From an uncultured Pelagibacteraceae bacterium (lineage in GTDB: Bacteria; Pseudomonadota; Alphaproteobacteria; Pelagibacterales; AG-422-B15), in the NCBI GenBank assembly GCA_902544065.1, contig CACCAS010000002.1:189517-253516 (forward strand): a stretch of DNA of 64,000 nt, in the 5' to 3' direction. The stretch's first letter is position 1. The number at the start of each line of letters is the position of its first letter. The position numbers and the translations under genes were made by a program. The notes below the pieces were generated by a model. The model saw only the letters and a list, made by a program, of their open reading frames with translations. It did not search any database and had not been told where the DNA came from. This document shows, in pieces, positions 15,416-28,432 of the stretch.

Positions 15416-16270
15416 TTACGCAACTCGTTTTAATAAAAGTGAGATAATTTGAGATAATTTATCTTTTAAATCTTTTCTATGTACTACTTGATCTATAAAT
15501 CCATGATCAAGCAAATATTCAGATCGCTGGAAACCATCAGGAAGAGTTTCACCTACAGTATTAGATATAACTCTGGGTCCAGCAAAACAAATCAGTGCAT
15601 TTGGTTCAGCTAATGTCACAGATCCAAGAGATCCAAACGAAGCAGTCACACCACCGCTTGTTGGATTTGTATTCACTACTACATAAGGCAGCTTAGCGTC
15701 TTTAACCATTTGACAGGCAATTGTTGTTTTTGGAAGCGACTGAAGTGAGTGTTGATTTTCATCCATTCTTGCTCCACCTGAGCAAGTAAAAACTATTAAC
15801 GGTGTATGATTTGTTACTGAATGTTCTGCAGCTTTTATCATAGCTTCTGCTGCTGAAGCCCCAACAGACCCTCCCATAAAATGAAAATTCTGAGCAGCTA
15901 TAGTTACATTCATATTATCTATTTTACCAAACCCGATCAAAAAGCAATCGTCCATGTCTGTCTTAGAGCGAGCCTCATTGAATCTTTCTTTGTAAGTTTT
16001 TAGGGCTTTGAAATTTAATGGATCACTAAAACCTGATGGATATTTTATTTCCTCAAAAACCCCACCATCAAAGAGACTTTTAAATCTTGCACGGGGGTGT
16101 ATTTGCAGATGCTCGTCGCAATTGGGACATACAAATAATGTTGATTCAAGATCACTTGAGTAAAGCATAGTTTGGCATTGAGGACATTTAATCCAGGAAT
16201 TCTCTGCGATATCTAAACTTTTTTTCTTTCGTGGAAAAACCTTTGATATTGTTCTGGTAAGCCAATTCAT
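15416..16270 (-). CDS. accD: Acetyl-CoA carboxylase carboxyltransferase beta subunit
   Basis: Beta half of the carboxyltransferase that makes malonyl-CoA for fatty acid synthesis, 284 aa. A four-cysteine zinc ribbon lies at residues about 29-50 (CPQCQ and CPNCDEHL). The crotonase-like catalytic core has GGSVGASAAEAMIKAAEHS, VFTCSGGARMDE and NPTSGGVTASFGSLGSV. The start overlaps the trpA stop by 4 bp. The partner accA is not in the window; the separate large carboxyltransferase at 55.3-56.8 kb is a different enzyme class. Confidence 0.96.
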   Translation of the reverse strand: MNWLTRTISKVFPRKKKSLDIAENSWIKCPQCQTMLYSSDLESTLFVCPNCDEHLQIHPRARFKSLFDGGVFEEIKYPSGFSDPLNFKALKTYKERFNEARSKTDMDDCFLIGFGKIDNMNVTIAAQNFHFMGGSVGASAAEAMIKAAEHSVTNHTPLIVFTCSGGARMDENQHSLQSLPKTTIACQMVKDAKLPYVVVNTNPTSGGVTASFGSLGSVTLAEPNALICFAGPRVISNTVGETLPDGFQRSEYLLDHGFIDQVVHRKDLKDKLSQIISLLLKRVA

Positions 16271-17061
16271 GATTTTAATTTATTTATAAGTTTTTTAACC
16301 ATTGCACCAATATTGGAAGCTGGACTCTTTCCCTCATTCACTGACTTAGATATTTCCCTGCAAAGAGCAGAACCTACAACACAAGCATCGGTGTCTTTAA
16401 AGTCAGCAATTGTCTCTTCGGTGATACCGAATCCAATAATACATTTTTTTTCAGGTGCTATTGCCTTAATTAAATTAAATCTGTTCTTGATTTCAGTTGG
16501 ACTCACTTTTAATTTTTGCCCAGTGGTAGAAAGCATAGAAATATAATAAACGACATCATGAGCATCGTTCAAAATCAATTTTAGCCTCTCCTCATTTGTT
16601 GTAGGACAAAGTAGTTGAATGAAATCTATATTATTTTTTTTACATTTGGCAGCAAAATCAAGATTAAGAGGCCATGGCCAATCCACACAAATAATTCCTG
16701 CCACCTTACTTTCCGCACACTTACTTAAAAAACTGTCTTCACCGCATGACATTATTTTATTTTGATAAGTCATTATGATTACGTTCGTATCAAACTCATC
16801 TCTTAATGTTTTAATTATATCAAATACATCGTCTGTTTTTATACCACTAGAAAGAGCTCTATATGTACCATCTTGAATTGCGCCACCATCACCAATGTTT
16901 GCTCCATGGCCCAAGCCACATTCAATAATATCTGCTCCCGAGCGAGCTATTGCTCTAAAGATTTCAAGAGAAGTTTCTTTGTTTGGGTCTCCGCCAACTG
17001 TATAAGTTAAGAAAGCTGCATTGTTTTGATCAAACGCATTTAATAATGGTGAGTTAGTCAT
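16267..17061 (-). CDS. trpA: Tryptophan synthase alpha chain, divergent
   Basis: 264 aa TIM-barrel homologue of TrpA, which cleaves indole-3-glycerol phosphate to indole. Equivalents of catalytic Glu49 and Asp60 are Glu47 (ADIIECGL) and Asp58 (NIGDGGAIQ). Phosphate-site segments GFGI and VVGSA are retained. However the normally near-invariant PFSDPxADGP stretch reads GHGANIGDGG, and the loop usually VxDxPxEE reads CVDWPWPLN. Position directly after trpB, overlapping it by 4 bp, argues for a tryptophan-synthase partner; the altered loops may change subunit contact or substrate. Confidence 0.8.
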   Translation of the reverse strand: MTNSPLLNAFDQNNAAFLTYTVGGDPNKETSLEIFRAIARSGADIIECGLGHGANIGDGGAIQDGTYRALSSGIKTDDVFDIIKTLRDEFDTNVIIMTYQNKIMSCGEDSFLSKCAESKVAGIICVDWPWPLNLDFAAKCKKNNIDFIQLLCPTTNEERLKLILNDAHDVVYYISMLSTTGQKLKVSPTEIKNRFNLIKAIAPEKKCIIGFGITEETIADFKDTDACVVGSALCREISKSVNEGKSPASNIGAMVKKLINKLKS

Positions 17062-18290
17062 ATCTTATATCCTAGACGTTCAGCTATTATTCTAGAGTCC
17101 TTCGCCGAGTCTCCACAAGAGTCAACTACAATAATAGTATCCTTACTTAATGATGGGGCAGTTTTTATTGCTTCAGCAAAAGCATGAGAAGGCTCTAGCG
17201 AAGGACTCACAAAACCTTCCATTCTACTTACCAATTGAAAAGCACTAATCGCTTCCTCATCAGTTGCAGAGGTATATCTTGCTCTACCAGACTCTTTAAG
17301 AAAACAGTGAAGTGGTGAAACGCCTGGATAGTCTAAACCAGCACTAATAGACGCCGTTTCCTCAATCTCTCCCTGATTATCTTGAATAACATATTGTGTT
17401 GCTCCGTGAAGCACACCTAAAGGAGAATTATTGGTAAGAGGGGCTGCATGCATTGACGACTTTTCAGGTCCACCAGCTTCTACTCCAATTAATTCAACAT
17501 TATCATGATCTATCCATTCATTCCAAAACCCAGCCGCAGAGGATCCTCCTCCAACACAGTTAATCAGTTTCATGTCTTTAGGGATATCTCCAAACTCATC
17601 AATCACCTGTTTTTTCATTTCCCGAGAAATTTGTGCTGTAGACCATGCACAGATTTTTACAAATATTGTTGGTCCAACTGTACTGCCTACGCACATATGC
17701 GCCTGCTCGTTTTCACTAGTCCACCATCTCATACATTCTGAAACAGCATCTACAAGTGTTTGAGATCCTGAGTCAACAGGAATAACTTCTGCACCATAAC
17801 TTCTCATTGAAAATACATTAATGGATTGTCGCTCGATATCCTTAGAGCCCATAAATATTTTACATTTCAAATTGAATTTGGCAGCAGCCATACTCAACAT
17901 CTTTCCCGCATAGCCCGCACCTGTATCTCCACCGATATAAGTTTTTCCTAATCTCTTACAAATAAGACTATGAACTACCGCGTTATATGCTTTATGTGCT
18001 CCTCCAGTTGCTTTTGAAACAAGCTTGCAATAAATTTGTGCTCCTCCAAGGTGTTTAGTAAGGTTTTCTAGTTTTATGAAAGGAGTAGGAGCTCCTATAA
18101 AGTTTTTAAAATAGAAATCTCTCTCTGCAATGAAGGTTTCGTCATTTCTAAGTTTCTCAAACTCTCTCGTTAATTCTTCAATAGGGTGATTTAAACTCTC
18201 TGCAATCTGATTTCCACCAAACTTTCCTCCCCAGTAACCATTTTCATCATGCTGATCAATAAGTGGAATGCCCTTTTGTAATTCGATCAT
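17058..18290 (-). CDS. trpB: Tryptophan synthase beta chain, divergent active site
   Basis: 410 aa PLP enzyme aligning with TrpB over its whole length. Kept: Schiff-base Lys100 (GGAHKAYN; Lys87 in Salmonella numbering), the MGSKDIERQSINVF block, SAGLDYPGV with Asp320 (Asp305) and LEPSHAFAEA. Changed: KREDLxHTG reads KLVSKATGG; the catalytic Glu109 is Asp122 and the following GAGQHG is GAGYAG; GPHPYP reads GPTIFV; GGGSNA is GGGSSA; the cofactor-nitrogen and salt-bridge segment LSGRGDKD reads SCGDSAKD (391-398). TrpF upstream is normal, so a tryptophan role is likely, but the chemistry or substrate may differ. No frameshift; the gene is intact. Confidence 0.8.
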   Translation of the reverse strand: MIELQKGIPLIDQHDENGYWGGKFGGNQIAESLNHPIEELTREFEKLRNDETFIAERDFYFKNFIGAPTPFIKLENLTKHLGGAQIYCKLVSKATGGAHKAYNAVVHSLICKRLGKTYIGGDTGAGYAGKMLSMAAAKFNLKCKIFMGSKDIERQSINVFSMRSYGAEVIPVDSGSQTLVDAVSECMRWWTSENEQAHMCVGSTVGPTIFVKICAWSTAQISREMKKQVIDEFGDIPKDMKLINCVGGGSSAAGFWNEWIDHDNVELIGVEAGGPEKSSMHAAPLTNNSPLGVLHGATQYVIQDNQGEIEETASISAGLDYPGVSPLHCFLKESGRARYTSATDEEAISAFQLVSRMEGFVSPSLEPSHAFAEAIKTAPSLSKDTIIVVDSCGDSAKDSRIIAERLGYKI

Positions 18291-18925
18291 ATAATATTTT
18301 TTGCTTTATCAATAAACTCAGTAATTAATTTTTTATCTTTTATACCCTCTGAATTCTCAACACCAGAACTAACATCAAAATAACTTGTTTTTTTAAGGTT
18401 TATTGCTGACATAATATTGTCTTTATTAAGTCCTCCTGACAGAAAAAAATTCTTAGTTATCGACGAATTTTCAATTATGCTCCAATCAAATTTATGTCCT
18501 GTTCCTCCTTTAACATCAGCTCGAGGAGGTGAGTCAAGCAAGAAGTATTCAACAAATGGCTCATATTTAACTAATTCATTTAAATCTTTAGAGGATGATA
18601 TTCCAAATGCTTTAATAATCTTAAAATTATATTTAAACTTTATTTTTTCCACAGTCTCTGGAGTTTCTTGACCATGTAATTGAATATATTTAAATCCAAT
18701 TCGTAATAAATTATCTAATAAATTTTTGTCAGGATTAACAGTAACTGCAACAGGTATGATTAGATTTTTTATTTCAGATAAAATTTGTTCGCAATTCTCA
18801 ATAGTAATATTTCTGTGGGAGTTTTCATAAAAAATAAATCCTATAAAGTTTGCACCAGCATTAATTGCGTGTTTTGCAATTTCATTATTTTTTACACCAC
18901 AAATTTTAATTTGTAGATCACTCAC
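18287..18925 (-). CDS. trpF: Phosphoribosylanthranilate isomerase
   Basis: 212 aa TIM-barrel isomerase of tryptophan synthesis. Catalytic Cys9 in KICGV and the acidic residue in YFLLDSPP are present, as are LHGQE, GGTGHKFDW, FLSGGL and the C-terminal DVSSGVEN...GIKD signature. It starts with GTG inside a GTGA overlap with pyrF and ends in a 4-bp overlap with trpB. Its ordinary active site contrasts with the changed TrpB/TrpA and implies that the tryptophan pathway is in use. Confidence 0.95.
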   Translation of the reverse strand: MSDLQIKICGVKNNEIAKHAINAGANFIGFIFYENSHRNITIENCEQILSEIKNLIIPVAVTVNPDKNLLDNLLRIGFKYIQLHGQETPETVEKIKFKYNFKIIKAFGISSSKDLNELVKYEPFVEYFLLDSPPRADVKGGTGHKFDWSIIENSSITKNFFLSGGLNKDNIMSAINLKKTSYFDVSSGVENSEGIKDKKLITEFIDKAKNII

Positions 18926-19614
18926 GTTATTTCTGAATATATGTGTTCAGCTGCTTCTGTAGGATTGTTAGCATTCGTTATTGGTCTACCTACAACTAAA
19001 ATATCAGCCCCAGCATCGATAGCTTCTTTAGCAGTAAGTATTCTTTTTTGGTCATGGGGTAAATTATTACTACCTCTGATGCCTGGAGAAATTATTTGAA
19101 GCTTATTTCCATAAGTATTTTTTACTTTAGAAATTTCTAGTGGACTGCAAACAATGCCATCTATTTCACAATCGATAGCAAGCTCAGTTAAGTTATTTAC
19201 ATTTTCATCGATAGTCATATTGAAACCAATTTCTGATATGTTTGCATCATTAAAACTAGTTAGCATTGTCACTCCAATCAATTTTGTTTTACTATGCAGC
19301 TCTTTTTTTGTGTTTACACATTCAATAAGCATTTCTGAACCGCCTGAAAGGTGTAATGTAGTATATGCCGGTTCAAATTGTAATATGTTGATAAGCGCTT
19401 GTTTCACGGTATTAGGGATGTCATATAATTTTAAATCAATGAATATCGGTAGCTCAAATTTCTTTACCTTTTCAAGACCCTCAAGACCACATGAAGTAAA
19501 AAATTCTAATCCTAATTTGATGCCACCAATATGAGGAGAAATTTTATCAATTAATTCAATTGCCTTATCAATATTACTCGTATCGATGGCACAGAAAATA
19601 GGGTTCTTTGTCAA
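18922..19614 (-). CDS. pyrF: Orotidine 5'-phosphate decarboxylase
   Basis: Last step of UMP synthesis, 230 aa. The catalytic Asp-Lys-x-x-Asp array is in PIFIDLKLYDIPNTV, with the N-terminal CAIDTSN and C-terminal phosphate-binding ISPGIRG and ILVVGRPIT. The start is a TTG (complement of 19612-19614); no in-frame ATG lies nearby. First gene of the overlapping pyrF-trpFBA-accD-folC string, 14 bp after ihfB. Confidence 0.95.
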   Translation of the reverse strand: MTKNPIFCAIDTSNIDKAIELIDKISPHIGGIKLGLEFFTSCGLEGLEKVKKFELPIFIDLKLYDIPNTVKQALINILQFEPAYTTLHLSGGSEMLIECVNTKKELHSKTKLIGVTMLTSFNDANISEIGFNMTIDENVNNLTELAIDCEIDGIVCSPLEISKVKNTYGNKLQIISPGIRGSNNLPHDQKRILTAKEAIDAGADILVVGRPITNANNPTEAAEHIYSEIT

Positions 19615-19628
19615 AACAAAATTATAAA

Positions 19629-19949
19629 TTAATTTTCTTCTTCTTGTGAAATAGAATTATTATTTCTAGAATTTAATTTTAACCTTAATTCTTTTCCAGT
19701 TTTAAATCTTGGAATAAATTTTTCTCCAACTTGAACTGCTTCTCCAGTTCTAGGATTCCTGCCTGTTCTTTGTTTTCTATGTTGTACTGAAAATGCCCCG
19801 AACCCTCTTAACTCTACCCTTTTACCTTCTGCTAAAGAGTGGGTTATTTCATTGAATATAGTATTAACTATTCTTTCTACATCTCTAACAAATAAGTGGG
19901 GATTCGCTTCAGTAATATTTTGTATTAACTTTGATTTTATTAAGCTCAT
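19629..19949 (-). CDS. ihfB: Integration host factor beta subunit
   Basis: DNA-bending nucleoid protein of the HU/IHF family, 106 aa. The DNA-contacting beta arm contains [17 protein letters not shown] with the intercalating proline, and [11 protein letters not shown] precedes it. An N-terminal helical dimerisation part ([18 protein letters not shown]) and a short acidic tail complete it. The usual rpsA-ihfB neighbourhood is kept. The IHF alpha partner is not in the window. Confidence 0.95.
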
Positions 19950-20004
19950 GCATATAATTATATGATATTGAGTCTTATTGTAAATAATTGAATGTAAAGA
20001 ATAT

Positions 20005-21702
20005 TTAGTCTTCTTTATTATCTCTGCCCAAAGCCTTGCCTAAAATAGCTCCTAAAGAGGCTCCGGAGTCTTTTGAACCATATTTTTCCATAGCTTCACG
20101 CTCAGTGGTTTCTTCCATTATTTTCACAGATAAAGTAACTTTGTAATTTGAGTAATCTATATTGATTATTGATGCATCAAGCTTATCATTTTTTGCCCAT
20201 CTTTCAGGACGAGCATCAGACTTTCTCAAGGCTAATTCATTTCTTTTTATTATTGTTAGAGGACCCTTTTCCCCAACTCGAACTTTAAGACCAAAATCTC
20301 CAGTTTCAACTACATTACAAGTGACAATATCACCCTTAACCTTGTCTTTTATCTCATTAAATGGGTTGCCATGAAGTTCCCTAATAGAAAGTGAGACCTT
20401 ATCATTTTCATTAGAAATAATTTTAGCCTTTATTTTATCGCCAACTTTATATTTCTTAATTTCTTCCTTAGGATCAGACTCCCAGGATAGGTCTTTGTTA
20501 AATATTGCTCCATCAATTTCACCGTCGAGATTGCCGAATATAATACCATCCTTTATATTTGTAATAGTTGTTTCTAATATACTGCCTACAGGATAATTTT
20601 CGTTAAATATTTGCCAAGGGTTGGGAGAAAGCTGTTTTATTCCTAAACTTAACCTTCTCTTTTCGTGGTCAATTTCTAAGATTTGACAATCAACTGACTG
20701 TGATCGAGCGTAGAGGTTTCCAGGTTTAGAATTTTGTTTTTGGCTCCATGTTAACATATCTTTATGACACAAACCTTCAACACCATTTTCAATTTCGATA
20801 AATATACCATAATCAGTTACATTTGTTACTACACCTGTAACCTTATCATTAACATTAAATTTTTCCTTTACTTTGAGCCATGGGTCATCTTCTAACTGTT
20901 TCATTCCTACTGAAACGCGATTCTTATCGGGATCAACTTTTATTATTTTAACCTTAACATGCTGATCTATTTTAAGAACCTCTGAGGGATGACCAATTCT
21001 TTTATATGTTATATCACTGCTATGTAGCAAAGAGTCATATCCACCTAAATCAACGAAAGCGCCGTAGTCTGTAATAGCTTTTATTTTTCCTTCAACTACA
21101 TCTTCAAGTTTAAGTTGCAAGAATCTCTCTTCTCTTACTTCTTTATGCATTTCTTCTAATACTGCCCTGCGGCTTACTACAATGTTATTTCTTTTAAGAT
21201 CCATTTTTAATATCTTAAATTTTTGCGGTACATCAATTAAATGGGTAACGTCCCTCACAGGTCTTGTGTCAATTTGACTTCCAGGTAAAAAAGCTGTTAC
21301 ACCAATCTCACATGACAAGCCACCTTTGACTTTGCCTGTTATAACACCTTCAACTAATTCACCTGCTTCAAAAGATTTTTCAATCTCTCCCCATATTTCT
21401 TTTGACTTTGCTTTAGACCTCGAGAGTATGCAATCACCATTGTGATTTTCTATTTTGTCTAAATAAACATCAATCTTGTCACCAACCTCAAGTTTCTTTT
21501 GGTCTTTTTGAAAAGCAAATTCTCTTTTTGATATCCTGCCCTCAACTTTTGCACCAATATCAACGATAACCGCCTCATCTTCAATTTCAGCAACTATTCC
21601 CTCAATTATTGTTCCCTCTTTTAATTTTGAATTACTTATCGACTCGGAAAGTATTGATTCAAACTCAGTCAATTGGTCATTATTTATTGTCTCTTGATCC
21701 AT
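20005..21702 (-). CDS. rpsA: 30S ribosomal protein S1
   Basis: 565 aa RNA-binding protein that brings mRNA to the 30S subunit. Six S1 (OB-fold) repeats can be followed, for example [41 protein letters not shown] and [20 protein letters not shown] (each shown here in part). Length equals that of E. coli (557). The start is 7 bp after the cmk stop on the minus strand, the usual cmk-rpsA order. Confidence 0.97.
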
Positions 21703-21708
21703 AAATAT

Positions 21709-22344
21709 TTAGCGATTAGAAATAATATTTTTAATTGCGTTAAAAACCTGTTCTATATCAAGATAACTGGTATCTAGCAATACCGAATTTACAGCAGGCA
21801 TTAAGGGGGCTATTTTTCTCGTCAAATCTTTTCGATCTCGCTTATTTATTTCATTATAAATAGTCCTATAGCTGATTTTTCTTTTGTTTTTTAAGTGCTG
21901 ATCATACCTCCTTTTTGCTCGTATTTCTGGATTCGCCCATAAAAAAATTTTATAATCTGCATTTGGAAAGATTATTGATCCTATATCTCTACCCTCAATA
22001 ATAGCAAAATCACATTTTTTAGCGTGCTCAATTGGAAAGTTTCTTTGTAACCTAATTAATTTATTTCTTAGCTCTTTTCTTGTTGAAATTATAGAAGATA
22101 CATAATCAATTTCTTTTGAATATAATTCTTCATTGCTTATATTATCTATTTTTACTAATGAAGCACACTTTAAAAGTTCTCTTATGTCTTGAGGGTTAAT
22201 TTTTCTTTTTATTGTTTCTATTGCAACAGCTCTGTAAAGCTTTCCACTATATAATACTGGAGATTTATACTTTTTAGATATTTTTTTTGCAATCATTGTT
22301 TTGCCTACTGCCGCTGGACCATCAATAGCAATTATTTTTGTCAT
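21709..22344 (-). CDS. cmk: Cytidylate kinase
   Basis: Phosphorylates CMP and dCMP, 211 aa. The P-loop is GPAAVGKT at residues 8-15, a variant of the usual GPAASGKG, and the nucleotide monophosphate site has YSGKLYRAVA where most have YLDTGALYRA. EGRDIGSIIFPNAD and the lid-like RAKRRYDQ follow. One base overlap with aroA. Somewhat divergent but complete. Confidence 0.92.
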   Translation of the reverse strand: MTKIIAIDGPAAVGKTMIAKKISKKYKSPVLYSGKLYRAVAIETIKRKINPQDIRELLKCASLVKIDNISNEELYSKEIDYVSSIISTRKELRNKLIRLQRNFPIEHAKKCDFAIIEGRDIGSIIFPNADYKIFLWANPEIRAKRRYDQHLKNKRKISYRTIYNEINKRDRKDLTRKIAPLMPAVNSVLLDTSYLDIEQVFNAIKNIISNR

Positions 22345-23636
22345 TAATTAATTCTTGAAAGCTTTTTTAAATGTTTTTCAAAATCAGGATAGCTTATCGA
22401 AATACACGATGAATTATCAATTATTAACTTATCTTTATGTAACAAGCCTAGAATTGTAAAAGACATTGCAATTCTGTGATCGCTATAAGTTTTTATTTTT
22501 TTTTGTTTATCAATTTTTAATTTCTTAGAACCTTGCACAATGATATTATCATGTTTTGATTTTACTTTGAAACCAAGGTTAGAAAGATTTTTTATTATAC
22601 TATTTATTCGGTCACTTTCTTTATGTCTGAGTTCGGATAATCCATTCATTATTGTTAAACCGCTAGCTTGGGAAGCAGCTATAGATAATATTGGATACTC
22701 ATCAATTAACAATGCTGATAAAGAAGCATTTATTTTAATGCCTTTAAGTGGGCTATAAGATACTTTTATTTCACCCACTTCCTCTCCGCTTACTGTATTA
22801 GTTTTTTTTATTTTGATATTACCTCCCATTTTTTTTAGAACAGAAATAAAAGCAATTCTCGTTTTATTTAATGCTATATTTTTCAGTACAATTTTTGATC
22901 CTGGTAGAATTAGAGCCCCAACTATAAAGAAGGCTGCGCTTGAGGGATCGCTTGCAATTTTTATATTCTTTGGCTTAATTTCACATGGACCATCGATTTC
23001 AATCAAGGTTGATTTATCCTTTAAACTAGTTTTATTATATTTTATATTTAAGTAATCCATTAGTCTTTCAGTGTGATCACGAGTATTTTTTTTTTCGATA
23101 ATTGAAGTTTTTCCATGTAAGTTCAGTGCTGAAAGTATTAAGGCAGATTTAACTTGAGCAGAAGCTTTTTCCATTATATGTTCCATTGGAATTAAATGAC
23201 TTCCACCCTTGATATAAGCTGGAAGAAAATCTTTTTTTGTTAGTTTAATTTCTGCCCCCATTCGCTCAAGAAATACCGTTAATCTTGACATTGGGCGTTT
23301 ACTTAATGAATTGTCACCAATAAAAGTACAGTTAATTGGATTAGATGATACTGCTCCAATCATTAAACGAGAAGTTGTACCGCTATTTCCGCAATCAAGA
23401 GCATGCGAAGGTTGTATGTAGCCGCATGTTCCATTTCCATATACAATCCACTTTTGTTTTTTCTTCACAATCTTTATTCCAAGCCTTTTTAGGATATTAA
23501 GAGTTCTCAATACATCATCTGATTCAAGTAGATTAGAAATAGTTACTTTACCAACAGAAAGAGAAGCGAAAATTAGAGCCCTATGAGAAATCGACTTATC
23601 GCCAGAAATTGTTATTGAACCTTTTAATTTTAACAC
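22344..23636 (-). CDS. aroA: 3-phosphoshikimate 1-carboxyvinyltransferase (EPSP synthase)
   Basis: Sixth enzyme of the shikimate pathway, 430 aa. Family motifs: GDKSISHRALIFASLS near the start, GNSGTTSRLMIGAV, KASAQVKSALILSAL, SDPSSAAFFIV, RHKESDRI and the C-terminal TYSDHRIAMSF. The N-terminal SISHR form resembles the class II type. It starts with GTG and leads the aroA-cmk-rpsA-ihfB string. Unusually lysine- and isoleucine-rich, in line with the AT-rich genome. Confidence 0.95.
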   Translation of the reverse strand: MLKLKGSITISGDKSISHRALIFASLSVGKVTISNLLESDDVLRTLNILKRLGIKIVKKKQKWIVYGNGTCGYIQPSHALDCGNSGTTSRLMIGAVSSNPINCTFIGDNSLSKRPMSRLTVFLERMGAEIKLTKKDFLPAYIKGGSHLIPMEHIMEKASAQVKSALILSALNLHGKTSIIEKKNTRDHTERLMDYLNIKYNKTSLKDKSTLIEIDGPCEIKPKNIKIASDPSSAAFFIVGALILPGSKIVLKNIALNKTRIAFISVLKKMGGNIKIKKTNTVSGEEVGEIKVSYSPLKGIKINASLSALLIDEYPILSIAASQASGLTIMNGLSELRHKESDRINSIIKNLSNLGFKVKSKHDNIIVQGSKKLKIDKQKKIKTYSDHRIAMSFTILGLLHKDKLIIDNSSCISISYPDFEKHLKKLSRIN

Positions 23637-23733
23637 TTTTTTATTGTTAATTTAATACGTTAGGATATTGTATACACTATATAAGATATTTAAATTATCA
23701 AAATTTTAAACCAATATTATCTAGAGATTCATA

Positions 23734-24099
23734 ATGCCAAAGCCAGAATTTGGAAAAAAAGTAGTTTGCAGCAATTGTGAAAATAAATTTTACGACTTAA
23801 ACAGGAAACCTGCTGTATGTCCGCACTGTGGAACAGAATATATTGAGCCAATTCTAGAAGTGAAGGCCAGCAGTGCAAAACAAGTTTTTAATGACGATGT
23901 GGATACAGTTACTGATGACAATTTAGTTGGAAGCGACGCAACGGAATCAATTGCTGATGTCCAAGAAATAGAAATTGATGATGCAATGGCTGATGATACG
24001 ATCAGCATTGAAGACACTGAAAGTGACGAAGCAATTTCAAGTGATGTAGGTATGGACCTGAATGATAATTCGTCAGAAGAAAATATTGATCAAGATTAA
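23734..24099 (+). CDS. TIGR02300-type zinc-ribbon acidic protein
   Basis: 121 aa. An N-terminal zinc ribbon (VVCSNCENKFYDLNRKP then AVCPHCGTEYIEP, residues 11-41) is followed by a long, very acidic and probably disordered tail rich in Asp and Glu. This layout is that of a protein family found almost only in Alphaproteobacteria, function unknown. It lies 4 bases upstream of tRNA-Ala and divergent from aroA, a typical position. Confidence 0.85.
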   Translation: MPKPEFGKKVVCSNCENKFYDLNRKPAVCPHCGTEYIEPILEVKASSAKQVFNDDVDTVTDDNLVGSDATESIADVQEIEIDDAMADDTISIEDTESDEAISSDVGMDLNDNSSEENIDQD

Positions 24100-24103
24100 T
24101 TTT

Positions 24104-24179
24104 GGGGCTGTAGCTCAGCTGGGAGAGCATCAGCATGGCATGTTGAGGGTCACCGGTTCGATCCCGGTCAGCTCCACCA
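24104..24179 (+). tRNA. tRNA-Ala(GGC)
   Basis: A 76-base cloverleaf including the encoded CCA. Acceptor arms GGGGCTG/CAGCTCC, D stem GCTC/GAGC, anticodon loop ATGGCAT with anticodon GGC, T loop TTCGATC. Its last base abuts the end of the convergent lptB gene. Confidence 0.97.
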
Positions 24180-24932
24180 TTAAAACTTAAATTTATCACC
24201 CAAATAAAATTTTCTTGCTTCCTTATTATCTAGTATTTTACTACTTGTACCATGAGCAATAATTTCTCCATTGAAGAGAAGATAACTATAATCACTTATA
24301 TCAAGAACTTCTCTCACCTGGTGATCAGTTATGATAACAGAAATACCTTTTTCCTTGAGTCTATTAATTTCAGATTTAATATCGTTAATTGAAATCGGAT
24401 CAAGCGCTGAAAAGGGCTCATCAAACAATACATATGATGGATTCGTACCTAATAATCTTGCGCACTCACATTTGCGTCTTTCGCCGCCAGATAATTGATG
24501 AGGCATTGCTTTTCGAAGATGTGTTAGGTTAAATTCAGCGAGTAATTCTTCTAGTCTATTTGCTCTTTGATCAAAATTAAGATTAGTAGTTTCTAATATT
24601 GCCATTATGTTATTCTCAACACTCAACCCCCTAAATATACTGGGTTGTTGAGGCAGATATCCAAGTCCTGATTTAGCTCTTTTCCACATGGGAAGAGTGG
24701 TAATATCTTTATTATTTAATTTAATTTCTCCACTATCACAAACCATAAGTCCAATAATACAGTATAGGGCTGTGCTCTTACCTGCTCCATTAGGTCCAAG
24801 TAATCCTATGACCTTCCCTCTTTCAACTTTAATTGATATATCTCTTACTATCTGCTTGCCAGAGAGGGATTTCCTCAAATTATTTACTTCAAGTCCTGTA
24901 TTAGTAGAAATTAATTTTGGTTTTGTAATCAT
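24180..24932 (-). CDS. lptB: LPS export ABC transporter ATPase LptB
   Basis: 250 aa cytoplasmic ATPase that drives lipopolysaccharide extraction through LptFG. Walker A GPNGAGKST, the Q-loop GYLPQQPSIFRGLSV, signature LSGGERRKCECARLL, Walker B YVLFDEPFSALDP and switch ITDHQVRE are all present, and the PSIFRGL context is specific for LptB. Last gene of the rnd-kdsD-lptC-lptA-lptB string. Its stop codon directly touches tRNA-Ala on the opposite strand. Confidence 0.96.
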   Translation of the reverse strand: MITKPKLISTNTGLEVNNLRKSLSGKQIVRDISIKVERGKVIGLLGPNGAGKSTALYCIIGLMVCDSGEIKLNNKDITTLPMWKRAKSGLGYLPQQPSIFRGLSVENNIMAILETTNLNFDQRANRLEELLAEFNLTHLRKAMPHQLSGGERRKCECARLLGTNPSYVLFDEPFSALDPISINDIKSEINRLKEKGISVIITDHQVREVLDISDYSYLLFNGEIIAHGTSSKILDNKEARKFYLGDKFKF

Positions 24933-24938
24933 CTAATT

Positions 24939-25388
24939 TTAATCTTCAGATATTATTATTGCCTCAACTCTTCTTGTAGTCTCGCTTTTCATAATACTAG
25001 ATGAGTTTTCTAGGTCTATTATAATTTCATCACATAATATTATATTATCATTTTCACTCACTTTAACTTCTCCAATAACAGTTAATTCATTTTTAAGAGG
25101 ATCATATACAGCTTCATCTCCAATAATAGATAATTGTTCTCTTAATATCTTTACATTATTTTTAGCATTTATTCTTTTGATCGTTTTTTCGTCTTTACTG
25201 GAAGTAAGTATTAACTCATCAGACCATATTTTCATATTATCTTCTAAAGCATAGACCTTCCCAGAAAAAATGGAAACGTTTTTTGACCTTACAATCTCTA
25301 ATTTGTCAGAAATTATTTTAATATTATTTGCTAATGATGATTTAGAATATAACAAAACTAGAAAAATGAATAAAATATTTTTAATCAT
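24939..25388 (-). CDS. lptA: LPS transport periplasmic protein LptA
   Basis: 149 aa. A signal peptide (residues 1-20, IKNILFIFLVLLYSKSSLAN) precedes an OstA-like beta-jellyroll with repeated short beta segments (VSIFSGKVYALEDNMKIWSD, NVKILREQLSIIGDEAVYD). It bridges LptC and LptD across the periplasm. Assignment rests on fold pattern and position between lptC and lptB rather than on strong motifs. Confidence 0.88.
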   Translation of the reverse strand: MIKNILFIFLVLLYSKSSLANNIKIISDKLEIVRSKNVSIFSGKVYALEDNMKIWSDELILTSSKDEKTIKRINAKNNVKILREQLSIIGDEAVYDPLKNELTVIGEVKVSENDNIILCDEIIIDLENSSSIMKSETTRRVEAIIISED

Positions 25389-25392
25389 AAAT

Positions 25393-25902
25393 TTACTCTA
25401 AGATGTATAAGGTGCTTACGTTTCCTTCGTAAATAATATGTTCAAAACTATTTTTTATTCTTGACTCGTCAGATGTTATAATACTACTTCCTTTTACATG
25501 TTTAACATTCTTATTAAATTTAATTAAATCGCTATCGATGGAAAATAATGCATAGTCTGAATAAAATCTATCGTTCTCATCTGTGTAGAAGGTAATTTCA
25601 CCGCTAAGTTCTATCTCATTTTTTATTTGATCAAAGTTTCCTTTTTTTGCATTTAAATATACCCAAATACCTGCAGCAGATCTTAATTTTCCCTCAACAA
25701 TGAATAATTCGAGAGAGTTCTCTCTTTGAATGCCTCTATCAGCTTTGATCTCGTAAAGCCTATTATCAAGACCCTTTTCAGAAAATTTTGGTTTATCAAT
25801 TTCAATTTCTAAATCAGCGTTTCCAAGAGATAATGAATAAAATGAAAGTATTGTATAGATTACTATAAGCTTAACTAAGCTATCAACTAATCTAATTAAC
25901 AT
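25393..25902 (-). CDS. lptC: LPS export protein LptC
   Basis: 169 aa bitopic protein: an N-terminal transmembrane helix (residues about 9-26) and a periplasmic jellyroll (DNRLYEIKADRGIQREN, IELSGEITFYTDENDRFYSD). It hands LPS from LptBFG to LptA. The start lies inside the end of kdsD (11-bp overlap). Sequence conservation in this family is weak, so identity depends mainly on gene order. Confidence 0.86.
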   Translation of the reverse strand: MLIRLVDSLVKLIVIYTILSFYSLSLGNADLEIEIDKPKFSEKGLDNRLYEIKADRGIQRENSLELFIVEGKLRSAAGIWVYLNAKKGNFDQIKNEIELSGEITFYTDENDRFYSDYALFSIDSDLIKFNKNVKHVKGSSIITSDESRIKNSFEHIIYEGNVSTLYILE

Positions 25903-26857
25903 ACCGAATACAATCGTGAATATGAATAATGCCTATAGGCCTCTTTTCTTTGAAATTATTTACTACAAATAAACACGTGATTTTATTGGCGTTCATCATT
26001 TTTAATGTATTAGTTACTAATTCTTCTTTACTAATTAGCATAGGTTTTGAGGACATAATTTCTCTTGCATTTAAATCTAATATTCCTTTTCTAACATGCC
26101 TTCTTATATCTCCATCAGTAATAATTCCAGATATTCTATTACTACTATTTTTTACTGCAACATGACCGAGTGATTTTTTTGTCATTTCAACGATAACAGT
26201 TTTCATTGACGAATTTTCGAAAACAATAGGAATTCTTTTTCCAGTGTGCATTATATCTTCAACTTGTAGCATATTAGCTCCTAGCGCGCCACCTGGATGT
26301 ATTTTTTTATAGTCGGCCAATTTAAAATTTTTAACTTTCATAAGCGATACGCAAATAGCATCTCCCAAAATTAATGACAGTGTAGTTGATGTTGTTGGCG
26401 CTAAACCAATAGAACACGCTTCTTTTGAATTCGGAATTAATAATGGAATATTGCATAATTTGAAAAGACTACTTTTTGCGTTGGACGTGATCCCAATTAT
26501 AAGAACTGCATTTTTTTTTGCAAAATCTAGTAATGATTTAAATTCTTCACTCTTACCGGAATTAGATATTATTATAATCGCATCACTTTTTGTAATTATA
26601 CCTAAGTCACCGTGGCTCATATCCGTTGGAGAACAATACTGTGATGGAGTGCCAGTTGAACTCATTGTACTTGAAATTTTACTAGCAATATGACCCGATT
26701 TCCCTACACCTGTAACTACAACTTTCCCTTTAATCTTTGATAATTTGTCAATAGCTTTAACAAAATTCAAATTTATTGTTTTAAAAAGTTTCTTAGCCTC
26801 TGATATCTCGGTTTCTATGACTGATTTTCCATAACTTTTGATCCTATTAGCACTCAT
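25892..26857 (-). CDS. kdsD: Arabinose-5-phosphate isomerase (KdsD/KpsF)
   Basis: Makes D-arabinose 5-phosphate for Kdo, the inner sugar of LPS. 321 aa with an N-terminal SIS sugar-isomerase domain (VVVTGVGKSGHIASKISSTM, TDMSHGDLGIITKSD, IIISNSGKSEE) and a C-terminal pair of CBS domains (ILDLNAREIMSSKPM). The GALGANML and HPGG motifs near residue 190 are characteristic. Second gene of the LPS-transport operon. Confidence 0.95.
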   Translation of the reverse strand: MSANRIKSYGKSVIETEISEAKKLFKTINLNFVKAIDKLSKIKGKVVVTGVGKSGHIASKISSTMSSTGTPSQYCSPTDMSHGDLGIITKSDAIIIISNSGKSEEFKSLLDFAKKNAVLIIGITSNAKSSLFKLCNIPLLIPNSKEACSIGLAPTTSTTLSLILGDAICVSLMKVKNFKLADYKKIHPGGALGANMLQVEDIMHTGKRIPIVFENSSMKTVIVEMTKKSLGHVAVKNSSNRISGIITDGDIRRHVRKGILDLNAREIMSSKPMLISKEELVTNTLKMMNANKITCLFVVNNFKEKRPIGIIHIHDCIRYVN

Positions 26858-26862
26858 ATTAA

Positions 26863-27474
26863 TTAGTTTGAATGAGAAAAAATATCATTTTCCCATCCCC
26901 TTAAATCAAGTTCAACTCTGATTGGAAGAAATTTAATGCATGAGTCAACAAGCTGCTCTCTGTTTTGTCTCTTAAGAATTTTATCTAGTTTAGCCTTTAT
27001 TTCATGCAGGTGCATTACATCAGTCGCAGCATAATTAATTTGTTCTTTAGTTAAGTCAGGGTTGGACCAATCACTTGATTGCTGTTTCTTAGAAACATCT
27101 ATATTTAAAAGTTCCTTACATAAATCCTTGTATCCGTGACTCTGGGAGTAAGTTCGTGCAATTTTTGAGCTTAGTTTCGTGCAATACACATTTTTAACCA
27201 TTACTCCTAGGTCATGTTTTATTGCTGCAAGATCGTGTCGTGCATAATGAAAAATGAAAGTCTTATTACTGCTCAGTAACTTTTTAAGATTGGGTGCATT
27301 AAATATTTTATCAATAAAATGAACTAAATGACAATCACCTTTACCATCGTATAATTGAATTAAGCACAGCGGATCTCTATCAGGCTGTAACCCCATCATT
27401 TCACAATCAGCGGCTATCAGATCTGAAAACTCCACATCATCTTCTAAATCGTTTTTATGTAAAATTATTTGCAT
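26863..27474 (-). CDS. rnd: Ribonuclease D (single-domain)
   Basis: 203 aa 3'-5' exoribonuclease of the DEDDy type, involved in tRNA and other RNA trimming. Acidic residues are in IAADCEMMGL, HYARHDLAAI and the C-terminal YAATDVMHLHEI, the last with the tyrosine. Only the nuclease domain is present; the HRDC domains of the E. coli enzyme (375 aa) are absent, as is usual in this lineage. First gene of the kdsD-lpt string. Confidence 0.92.
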   Translation of the reverse strand: MQIILHKNDLEDDVEFSDLIAADCEMMGLQPDRDPLCLIQLYDGKGDCHLVHFIDKIFNAPNLKKLLSSNKTFIFHYARHDLAAIKHDLGVMVKNVYCTKLSSKIARTYSQSHGYKDLCKELLNIDVSKKQQSSDWSNPDLTKEQINYAATDVMHLHEIKAKLDKILKRQNREQLVDSCIKFLPIRVELDLRGWENDIFSHSN

Positions 27475-27526
27475 TGTATGAAAATTAACTTATTTCAAAG
27501 AAGTACATAAGGTATATTTATCAAAT

Positions 27527-28432
27527 ATGAAGAAAAAAAAAATTACTATACTTGGAGGTTCAGGCTTTTTAGCCAAATACTGTATTGCAGAATTATTAAA
27601 TCATGGACATAAAATAAAGATTATATGCCGAAATACCCATCTCGCCGGCCATATTAGAATGATGGGTCCAATAGACCAATTAGATTTGATAAAGGGAAAT
27701 ATTAGGTTAAAGCACTCTATCGAGCCCTATATAATTGGATCTGATATTGTCATTAATTTTGTCGGTATACTCAATGAATCTACAGGGGATCAGACCTTTA
27801 ATAATTGCCACGCAGTTGGAGCAAAAAATATCGCAGAACTATGCTCTGAACACAACATTGAGCGATTAATTCACTTTTCATCCATAGGTGCCGATGTTGA
27901 TAGTGATGCAAAATACCAAGTCTCTAAAGGCTTAGGTGAAAAGAATATTTTAAATAATTTTTCAAAATCAACAATAATAAGGCCATCAATTGTTTTTGGG
28001 CCTGGTGACGGTTTTTTCACTTTGCAATCAAAACTGGTAAAGCTTCTTCCAATTGTTCCTTTGTTTAGCAACAATAAGTTTCAATGCGTGTATGTAAAGG
28101 ATATTGCCAAGGGGTTAGTGAAACTTTTAGATGATAAAGAAACAGAAGGAAAGATTTATGAATTTGGGGGACCTGATGTCATGACACTTAAAGAAATTTA
28201 TCAATTAATTTTAAACACATTAAAAATTAAAAGAATAATTCTTCCTCTGCCTCTATCTTTTGCAAATGCCTCTGCATTATTAATGAAGTTATCACCGACT
28301 CCTATGATTACCTTTGATCAAGTCAAGATGCTAAAGAAAGACAATATAGTATCTGATACTCCCTACAATCTCACTTCGTTAGGGATAACCGCGAAATCAT
28401 CAAGAGATATCATAGGTAATTATATTTCTTAA
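27527..28432 (+). CDS. Complex I NDUFA9-family NAD(P)-binding epimerase
   Basis: 301 aa short-chain dehydrogenase/epimerase-like protein. The dinucleotide-binding glycine motif is ILGGSGFLAKY at residues 8-18, with ICRN and VINFVGIL next, and the family-specific RPSIVFGPGDGFF region near residue 150. Alphaproteobacterial members resemble the mitochondrial complex I accessory subunit NDUFA9, but their role in bacteria is not established. Commonly found beside uppP, as here (convergent, 3 bp apart). Confidence 0.88.
   Translation: MKKKKITILGGSGFLAKYCIAELLNHGHKIKIICRNTHLAGHIRMMGPIDQLDLIKGNIRLKHSIEPYIIGSDIVINFVGILNESTGDQTFNNCHAVGAKNIAELCSEHNIERLIHFSSIGADVDSDAKYQVSKGLGEKNILNNFSKSTIIRPSIVFGPGDGFFTLQSKLVKLLPIVPLFSNNKFQCVYVKDIAKGLVKLLDDKETEGKIYEFGGPDVMTLKEIYQLILNTLKIKRIILPLPLSFANASALLMKLSPTPMITFDQVKMLKKDNIVSDTPYNLTSLGITAKSSRDIIGNYIS

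Follow-up and report, generated by a model that had tools for sequence, protein, structure and literature searches.

The question raised by this locus is whether tryptophan synthase, the enzyme on which allostery and substrate channelling are classically studied, has been rebuilt here under selection or is simply decaying. The window, a stretch of 64,000 nucleotides from an uncultured Pelagibacteraceae bacterium, encodes on the reverse strand a tryptophan synthase beta chain of 410 amino acids (trpB, 17058–18290), with the extent and strand given in a preliminary description made from the DNA letters. The gene overlaps by 4 nucleotides each with trpF (18287–18925, reverse strand), encoding an ordinary phosphoribosylanthranilate isomerase, and with trpA (16267–17061, reverse strand), encoding the partner alpha chain of 264 amino acids. 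The preliminary description read this full-length frame beside a normal TrpF as a sign of selection for a changed enzyme, and both observations were confirmed.

A search with TIGR00263 assigned the window TrpB a score of 395.3 bits, narrowly above the equivalog cut-off of 392.45, and other proteins of the same SAR11-type class, designated class II, scored on both sides of this cut-off. Full-length main TrpB of other alphaproteobacteria reached about 550–658 bits in a class-wide sample, which makes the window protein an outlier by about 200 bits. It does not belong to TrpB2, as the model TIGR01415 gave 103 bits against a cut-off of 518.85. Identity to the E. coli proteins was about 41% for TrpB and 24% for TrpA. 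Structure prediction, proposed earlier as a check, yielded an AlphaFold2 model (pLDDT 94.4) matching TrpB structures of the PDB with TM values of 0.91/0.96; the class II protein is thus predicted to have an ordinary TrpB fold, that of a fold type II PLP enzyme.

Residues were compared with those of 61 ordinary TrpB (E. coli and 60 others; E. coli numbering is used throughout). The PLP lysine Lys87 (K100) and Asp305 (D320) are kept, as previously noted, together with His86 (H99) and Glu350 (E366). The replacement of the indole-activating carboxylate Glu109 by Asp (D122; codon 17925–17927, reverse strand), the change of GAGQHG to GAGYAG (Gln114 to Tyr, Y127; His115 to Ala, A128) and the loss of GPHPYP (His195 to Thr, T208; Pro198 to Val, V211; HPYP is absent) also proved correct. 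Two motifs had been read partly wrongly. In KLVSKATGG, described as an altered KREDLxHTG, the changes of His82 to Thr (T95) and Asn89 to Tyr (Y102) hold, but 'HGG' in place of 'HTG' is found in E. coli TrpB too; in SCGDSAKD, described as an altered LSGRGDKD, Arg379 is indeed Asp (D394), but Cys377 is ancestral and ordinary for alphaproteobacteria (Cys in 44 of the 61 ordinary TrpB). Asn236 is changed to Ser (S251) as well. At each site given here with its window residue, kept or changed, the ordinary residue occurs in 61/61 ordinary TrpB, with the exception of Gln114 (59/61). Such a motif-by-motif loss is not a chance effect. In addition, the TrpB1-specific Lys167 at the alpha-beta contact is replaced by Val180 (codon 17751–17753, reverse strand).

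An alignment of 110 distinct class II TrpB with the 61 ordinary TrpB from Pseudomonadota placed these changes in a wider frame. Ordinary TrpB share 168 sites that are conserved to at least 95%. Class II has lost 53 of them and carries a single uniform substitute at 23, including E109D, K167V, N89Y, N171S, T190S, V201C, F204S, N236S, N282A and G310S, while Q114, H115, R148, H195, P196, P198, R379 and D381 are replaced by several different residues. Glu109 (61/61 ordinary TrpB) is Asp in 110/110 class II proteins, which retains a carboxylate, and Lys167 is Val or Ile in 110/110. Class II everywhere retains H86, K87, R141, D305, E350 and the GGGS loop (His86-Lys87 in 109/109, the Arg141-Asp305 pair in 109/109, GGGS in 110/110, followed by Ser in place of Asn236). 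Outside Pelagibacterales, 399 Pseudomonadota yielded no match near 50% identity, and the best 80 TrpB matches in GTDB were all SAR11-like, with about 500 weaker matches beyond those. The TrpB changes are no peculiarity of a single gene; they are fixed across a large and old clade that includes P. ubique. For this reason the suspicion that such substitutions might be common in functional TrpB came half true, and the term 'rebuilt', fair in itself, had been framed too locally: it belongs to the whole clade and to its TrpA.

That 53 out of 168 conserved sites are gone might point to a gene decaying under relaxed selection, but the genomic evidence leaves this explanation practically no probability. 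The window genome contains one trpA and one trpB, and the second, ordinary trpAB that the preliminary description suggested looking for was found neither there nor in 356 relatives at E ≤ 1e-40, each of these Pelagibacterales genomes having a single TrpB match. The genes trpE, trpG, trpD and trpC lie next to one another, each of them intact, the relatives' frames are open, and dN/dS of trpB (0.017–0.040) is as low as that of rpsA and accD and below that of trpA (0.07–0.20). One trpB per genome, intact trpEGDC and this low dN/dS exclude decay, as had been supposed. P. ubique can be grown in a defined medium to which no tryptophan is added. That its TrpB must function was argued before from its single copy (Kagan et al., PMC2395257).

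Several further loci were inspected. Seven nearly complete genomes seemed to have lost trpBA; these cases were rejected as assembly gaps, because accD, an essential gene, is missing as well from five of the seven and lies at the edge of a contig in another, and the last one has trpA. A phage origin was rejected, as no encoding contig was present in IMG/VR. In AG-904-D18 (G018; L040:7227-7910, L027), trpA breaks off after codon 50 and runs on into unrelated sequence; an assembly chimera is probable, a rearrangement the alternative. The P. ubique-type TrpF (L109:5355-5993) does not contain the GGTG phosphate-binding motif (FDSKGYEKSQSFDHD) that the window TrpF keeps. Another alphaproteobacterium (G143; L236:292-2830) carries, besides an ordinary trpB elsewhere in its genome, a degenerate trpB-trpA pair whose TrpB is devoid of the PLP lysine and the GGGSN loop and whose TrpA-like protein has a long acidic tail. 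The two resemble a pseudoenzyme pair; the divergent TrpB was rejected as a relative of the SAR11 proteins, as it is not close to any of their classes.

The partner TrpA is changed as well, which the preliminary description overlooked: ELGIPFSDPLADGP has become ECGLGHGANIGDGG. The window protein (TIGR00262, 174 bits; cut-off 102.35) retains the catalytic Glu47 (E49) and Asp58 (D60), while Asp56, the partner of beta Lys167, is Ala54 (codon 16900–16902, reverse strand) and loop 2 is remodelled. Throughout class II, TrpA keeps E49 (111/111), D60 (109/111), Y175 and T183 (EDYT at 49-60-175-183 in 107/109), and with Glu49, Asp60 and Tyr175 it has the residues expected of a TrpA; D56, F54 and G181 are lost. 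In 45/45 ordinary pairs, the contact between alpha56 and beta167, which we take to be a salt bridge, consists of D-K; 108/109 class II pairs have T/A/C-V/I at these positions, and the sole exception has a chimeric trpA. Both residues touch beta Tyr279 (PMC8187860), and Lys167 (K162 in P. furiosus) was described as an active-site residue conserved in TrpB1 alone (PMC1854888). The closed state owes its stability to the interactions Gln114-Asn145-Arg148 and Arg141-Asp305 (PMC9512447); the three positions of the former set read YNA or YNS in 101/109 class II proteins. Furthermore, three of the six LBCA-Res6 residues, which make the TrpB of LBCA and P. luteolum active without TrpA (PMC11917138), occur in 101/110 class II proteins, and 0–1 of them in 59/61 ordinary TrpB. 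The class II change is a two-subunit matter, much of it within the alpha-beta communication network, and the earlier notion of a rebuilt active site, with its possibly altered chemistry, understates it. The network losses together with the Res6 residues suggest a weaker or different subunit coupling.

Within Pelagibacterales, four kinds of TrpB, ordinary and of classes II, III and IV, occupy one genomic place between pyrF upstream (18922–19614, reverse strand; vertically inherited) and accD downstream (15416–16270, reverse strand; mostly vertically inherited). Ordinary TrpB is found there in three relatives (G206, G211, G153). Class III, assigned by identity in 12 of the 356 genomes with a match, keeps E109 and K167 and has lost D305 (Q/N/T); in its TrpA, alpha56 is Glu, giving E-K at alpha56-beta167 in 8/8 pairs, and alpha60 is often Glu. 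The remaining TrpB among the matches listed for the 356 genomes have at most 41% identity to class III, within the range of class II. Class IV (G198, L175; DSSHK, ETGAS, T-L at alpha56-beta167) forms a very long branch known from one genome.

The distribution of these classes does not follow that of the families f1, the window's own, and f2, the Pelagibacter family. Family f1 is probably AEGEAN-169/HIMB59, whose placement in SAR11 is disputed (PMC10308909). In the TrpB and TrpA trees, the supported clades class II (100/100), obtained in the phylogeny that had been proposed as a check, and class III (100/99) each mix f1 and f2, the starred branches require at least four changes of the f1 label, and support for joining class II to class III is weak (82/97); ordinary f1 TrpB fall among other alphaproteobacteria in the TrpB tree. 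The two families separate cleanly in the rpsA and pyrF trees (support 99–100), with a support of 85 in the accD tree. Window and P. ubique share 69% identity in TrpB and just 35% in rpsA, whereas window and sister genus share 79% in rpsA and 41% in TrpB. P. ubique AAA797-I19 (class II) and G283 (class III) are 94.8% identical in rpsA and 91.6% in accD but 37% in TrpB and 28% in TrpA, and their DNA similarity ends near the trpF end and returns at the last bases of trpA. The exchanged unit is therefore the trpBA pair, swapped exactly between lineages at one locus. As the pair moves together and co-varies, TrpB and TrpA very probably still form a complex.

Larger replacements were observed too. 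In G015 (L154), a member of the window's own genus, a block reaching from about trpF as far as trx is of foreign origin, with identities to its congeners of 43–44% for accD and 51–54% for trx, compared with 81–100% for ihfB and rpsA. Between the window and G016 (L227-L229), synonymous difference rises from about 0.1–0.4 to 0.5–0.75 from trpF to about 28 kb (18300–28400) and then drops; recombination has replaced a block of about 10 kb, with one border at trpF/trpB, in either the window genome or G016. A selective sweep, considered for the low synonymous divergence from trpB to trx, was rejected, as background divergence is just as low in other regions and the departure from it is the raised level on the 18.3–28 kb side. 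One may tentatively speculate that the two genes of trpBA form an exchange cassette of SAR11 and AEGEAN-169-like bacteria, in which at least three radically different co-adapted tryptophan synthases, two with different network breaks, replace one another at one site and are perhaps kept diverse by selection, for example by an enzyme inhibitor.

The analysis shows directly that SAR11-type TrpB is conserved, present once per genome, held by purifying selection and accompanied by a complete pathway, that both subunits changed together, that the pair was exchanged in place and, by a model, that the fold is kept. These findings are best explained, with a probability of roughly 0.7, by SAR11-type TrpBA being a working tryptophan synthase with rebuilt subunit communication; that it still makes tryptophan is very probable. 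TrpA would still split indole-3-glycerol phosphate via Glu49 and Asp60, and indole would be transferred to TrpB, where PLP on Lys87 and Asp305 would form the aminoacrylate, presumably from L-serine, and the shorter carboxylate, Asp for Glu109, would stabilise the indole nitrogen. Control would be altered with the alpha Asp56-beta Lys167 contact and the hydrogen-bond set Gln114-Asn145-Arg148, which favours the closed state, gone, and with Arg141-Asp305 and three of the six 'stand-alone TrpB' residues present. Closing of TrpB might then depend less on TrpA or be coupled via other contacts. Some points speak against this explanation. Asp at position 109 should be slower than Glu, and a Salmonella E109D mutant is reportedly much slower. 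Glu109 was described as essential for indole activation (PMC9512447), and just three of six Res6 residues match.

Other readings of these data have to be weighed. The enzyme may have kept ordinary allostery, with substitute contacts coupling the subunits and the changes representing old neutral or compensated drift; the single, long stem branch of class II (1.24–1.39 changes per site), the retained core catalytic residues of both chains and the predicted ordinary fold are in line with this. Yet 23 sites were fixed to one other residue and then held at dN/dS 0.02–0.04, and class III disrupted this network elsewhere, losing Asp305 and keeping alpha56-beta167, which renders drift rather unlikely. 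A shift to another product or donor, for example another beta-substituted serine, with tryptophan being taken up, is improbable: most substrate-pocket loops are altered and oligotrophs do take up amino acids, but trpEGDCF are intact and linked and the chemistry residues of TrpA are retained. Asp305, where TrpB2 has Arg (PMC1854888), is kept as well. Still more improbable is a TrpB pseudoenzyme which merely switches on TrpA so that indole is released, as in eudicot TSB-like proteins. Glu109 is one of the two residues whose change made these proteins pseudoenzymes (PMC12727527), but in them Ala replaced the Glu, and Glu the equivalent of Asp305; here Asp109 is found, Asp305 stays, Lys87 is retained in all class II proteins, and a complete pathway has no second TrpB for tryptophan synthesis.

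A working class II enzyme would mean that a bacterial group which ranks among the most abundant depends on a TrpAB devoid of residues thought essential for coupling. Two different breaks and an ordinary control at the same locus of close relatives constitute a natural experiment on the two halves of the enzyme, and motif loss is no safe ground for calling auxotrophy. The TrpB cluster itself has been known since 2008. Among open-licence papers, we found no description of the residue-level network loss, the two-subunit co-change, the second type with a complementary break or the exact trpBA exchange.

Compared with TrpB1/TrpA of Salmonella and P. furiosus (TIGR00263, TIGR00262), the SAR11-type pair shares the predicted fold (TM 0.91/0.96), the trpB-trpA linkage, PLP Lys87, His86, GGGS, Arg141, Asp305 and Glu350 as well as alpha Glu49, Asp60, Tyr175 and Thr183. 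It differs by Asp for Glu109, Val for Lys167, the loss of Gln114, His115, HPYP, Arg148, Asn236 and Arg379, and altered alpha Asp56, Phe54 and Gly181. The distinct marine TrpB1 cluster containing P. ubique (Kagan et al., PMC2395257) has the single copy in common; the available part of that report placed it by distance and contains no residue analysis, TrpA co-change, second remodelled type or gene-pair exchange. Like TrpB2 (TrpB-like, TIGR01415), SAR11-type TrpB is devoid of Lys167, but it keeps Asp305 where TrpB2 has Arg (PMC1854888). With the stand-alone TrpB of LBCA and P. luteolum (PMC11917138) it shares, at the sequence level, Thr53, Ser187 and Ala279; these are three of the six Res6 residues in the window TrpB, which has no Glu36, Glu42 or Met280 and is encoded beside its own TrpA. 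The eudicot TSB-like pseudoenzyme (PMC12727527), which combines Ala for Glu109 and Glu for Asp305 with a separate catalytic TrpB, likewise has an altered Glu109 position, whereas the SAR11-type protein carries Asp there, keeps Asp305 and is the only TrpB of its genome.
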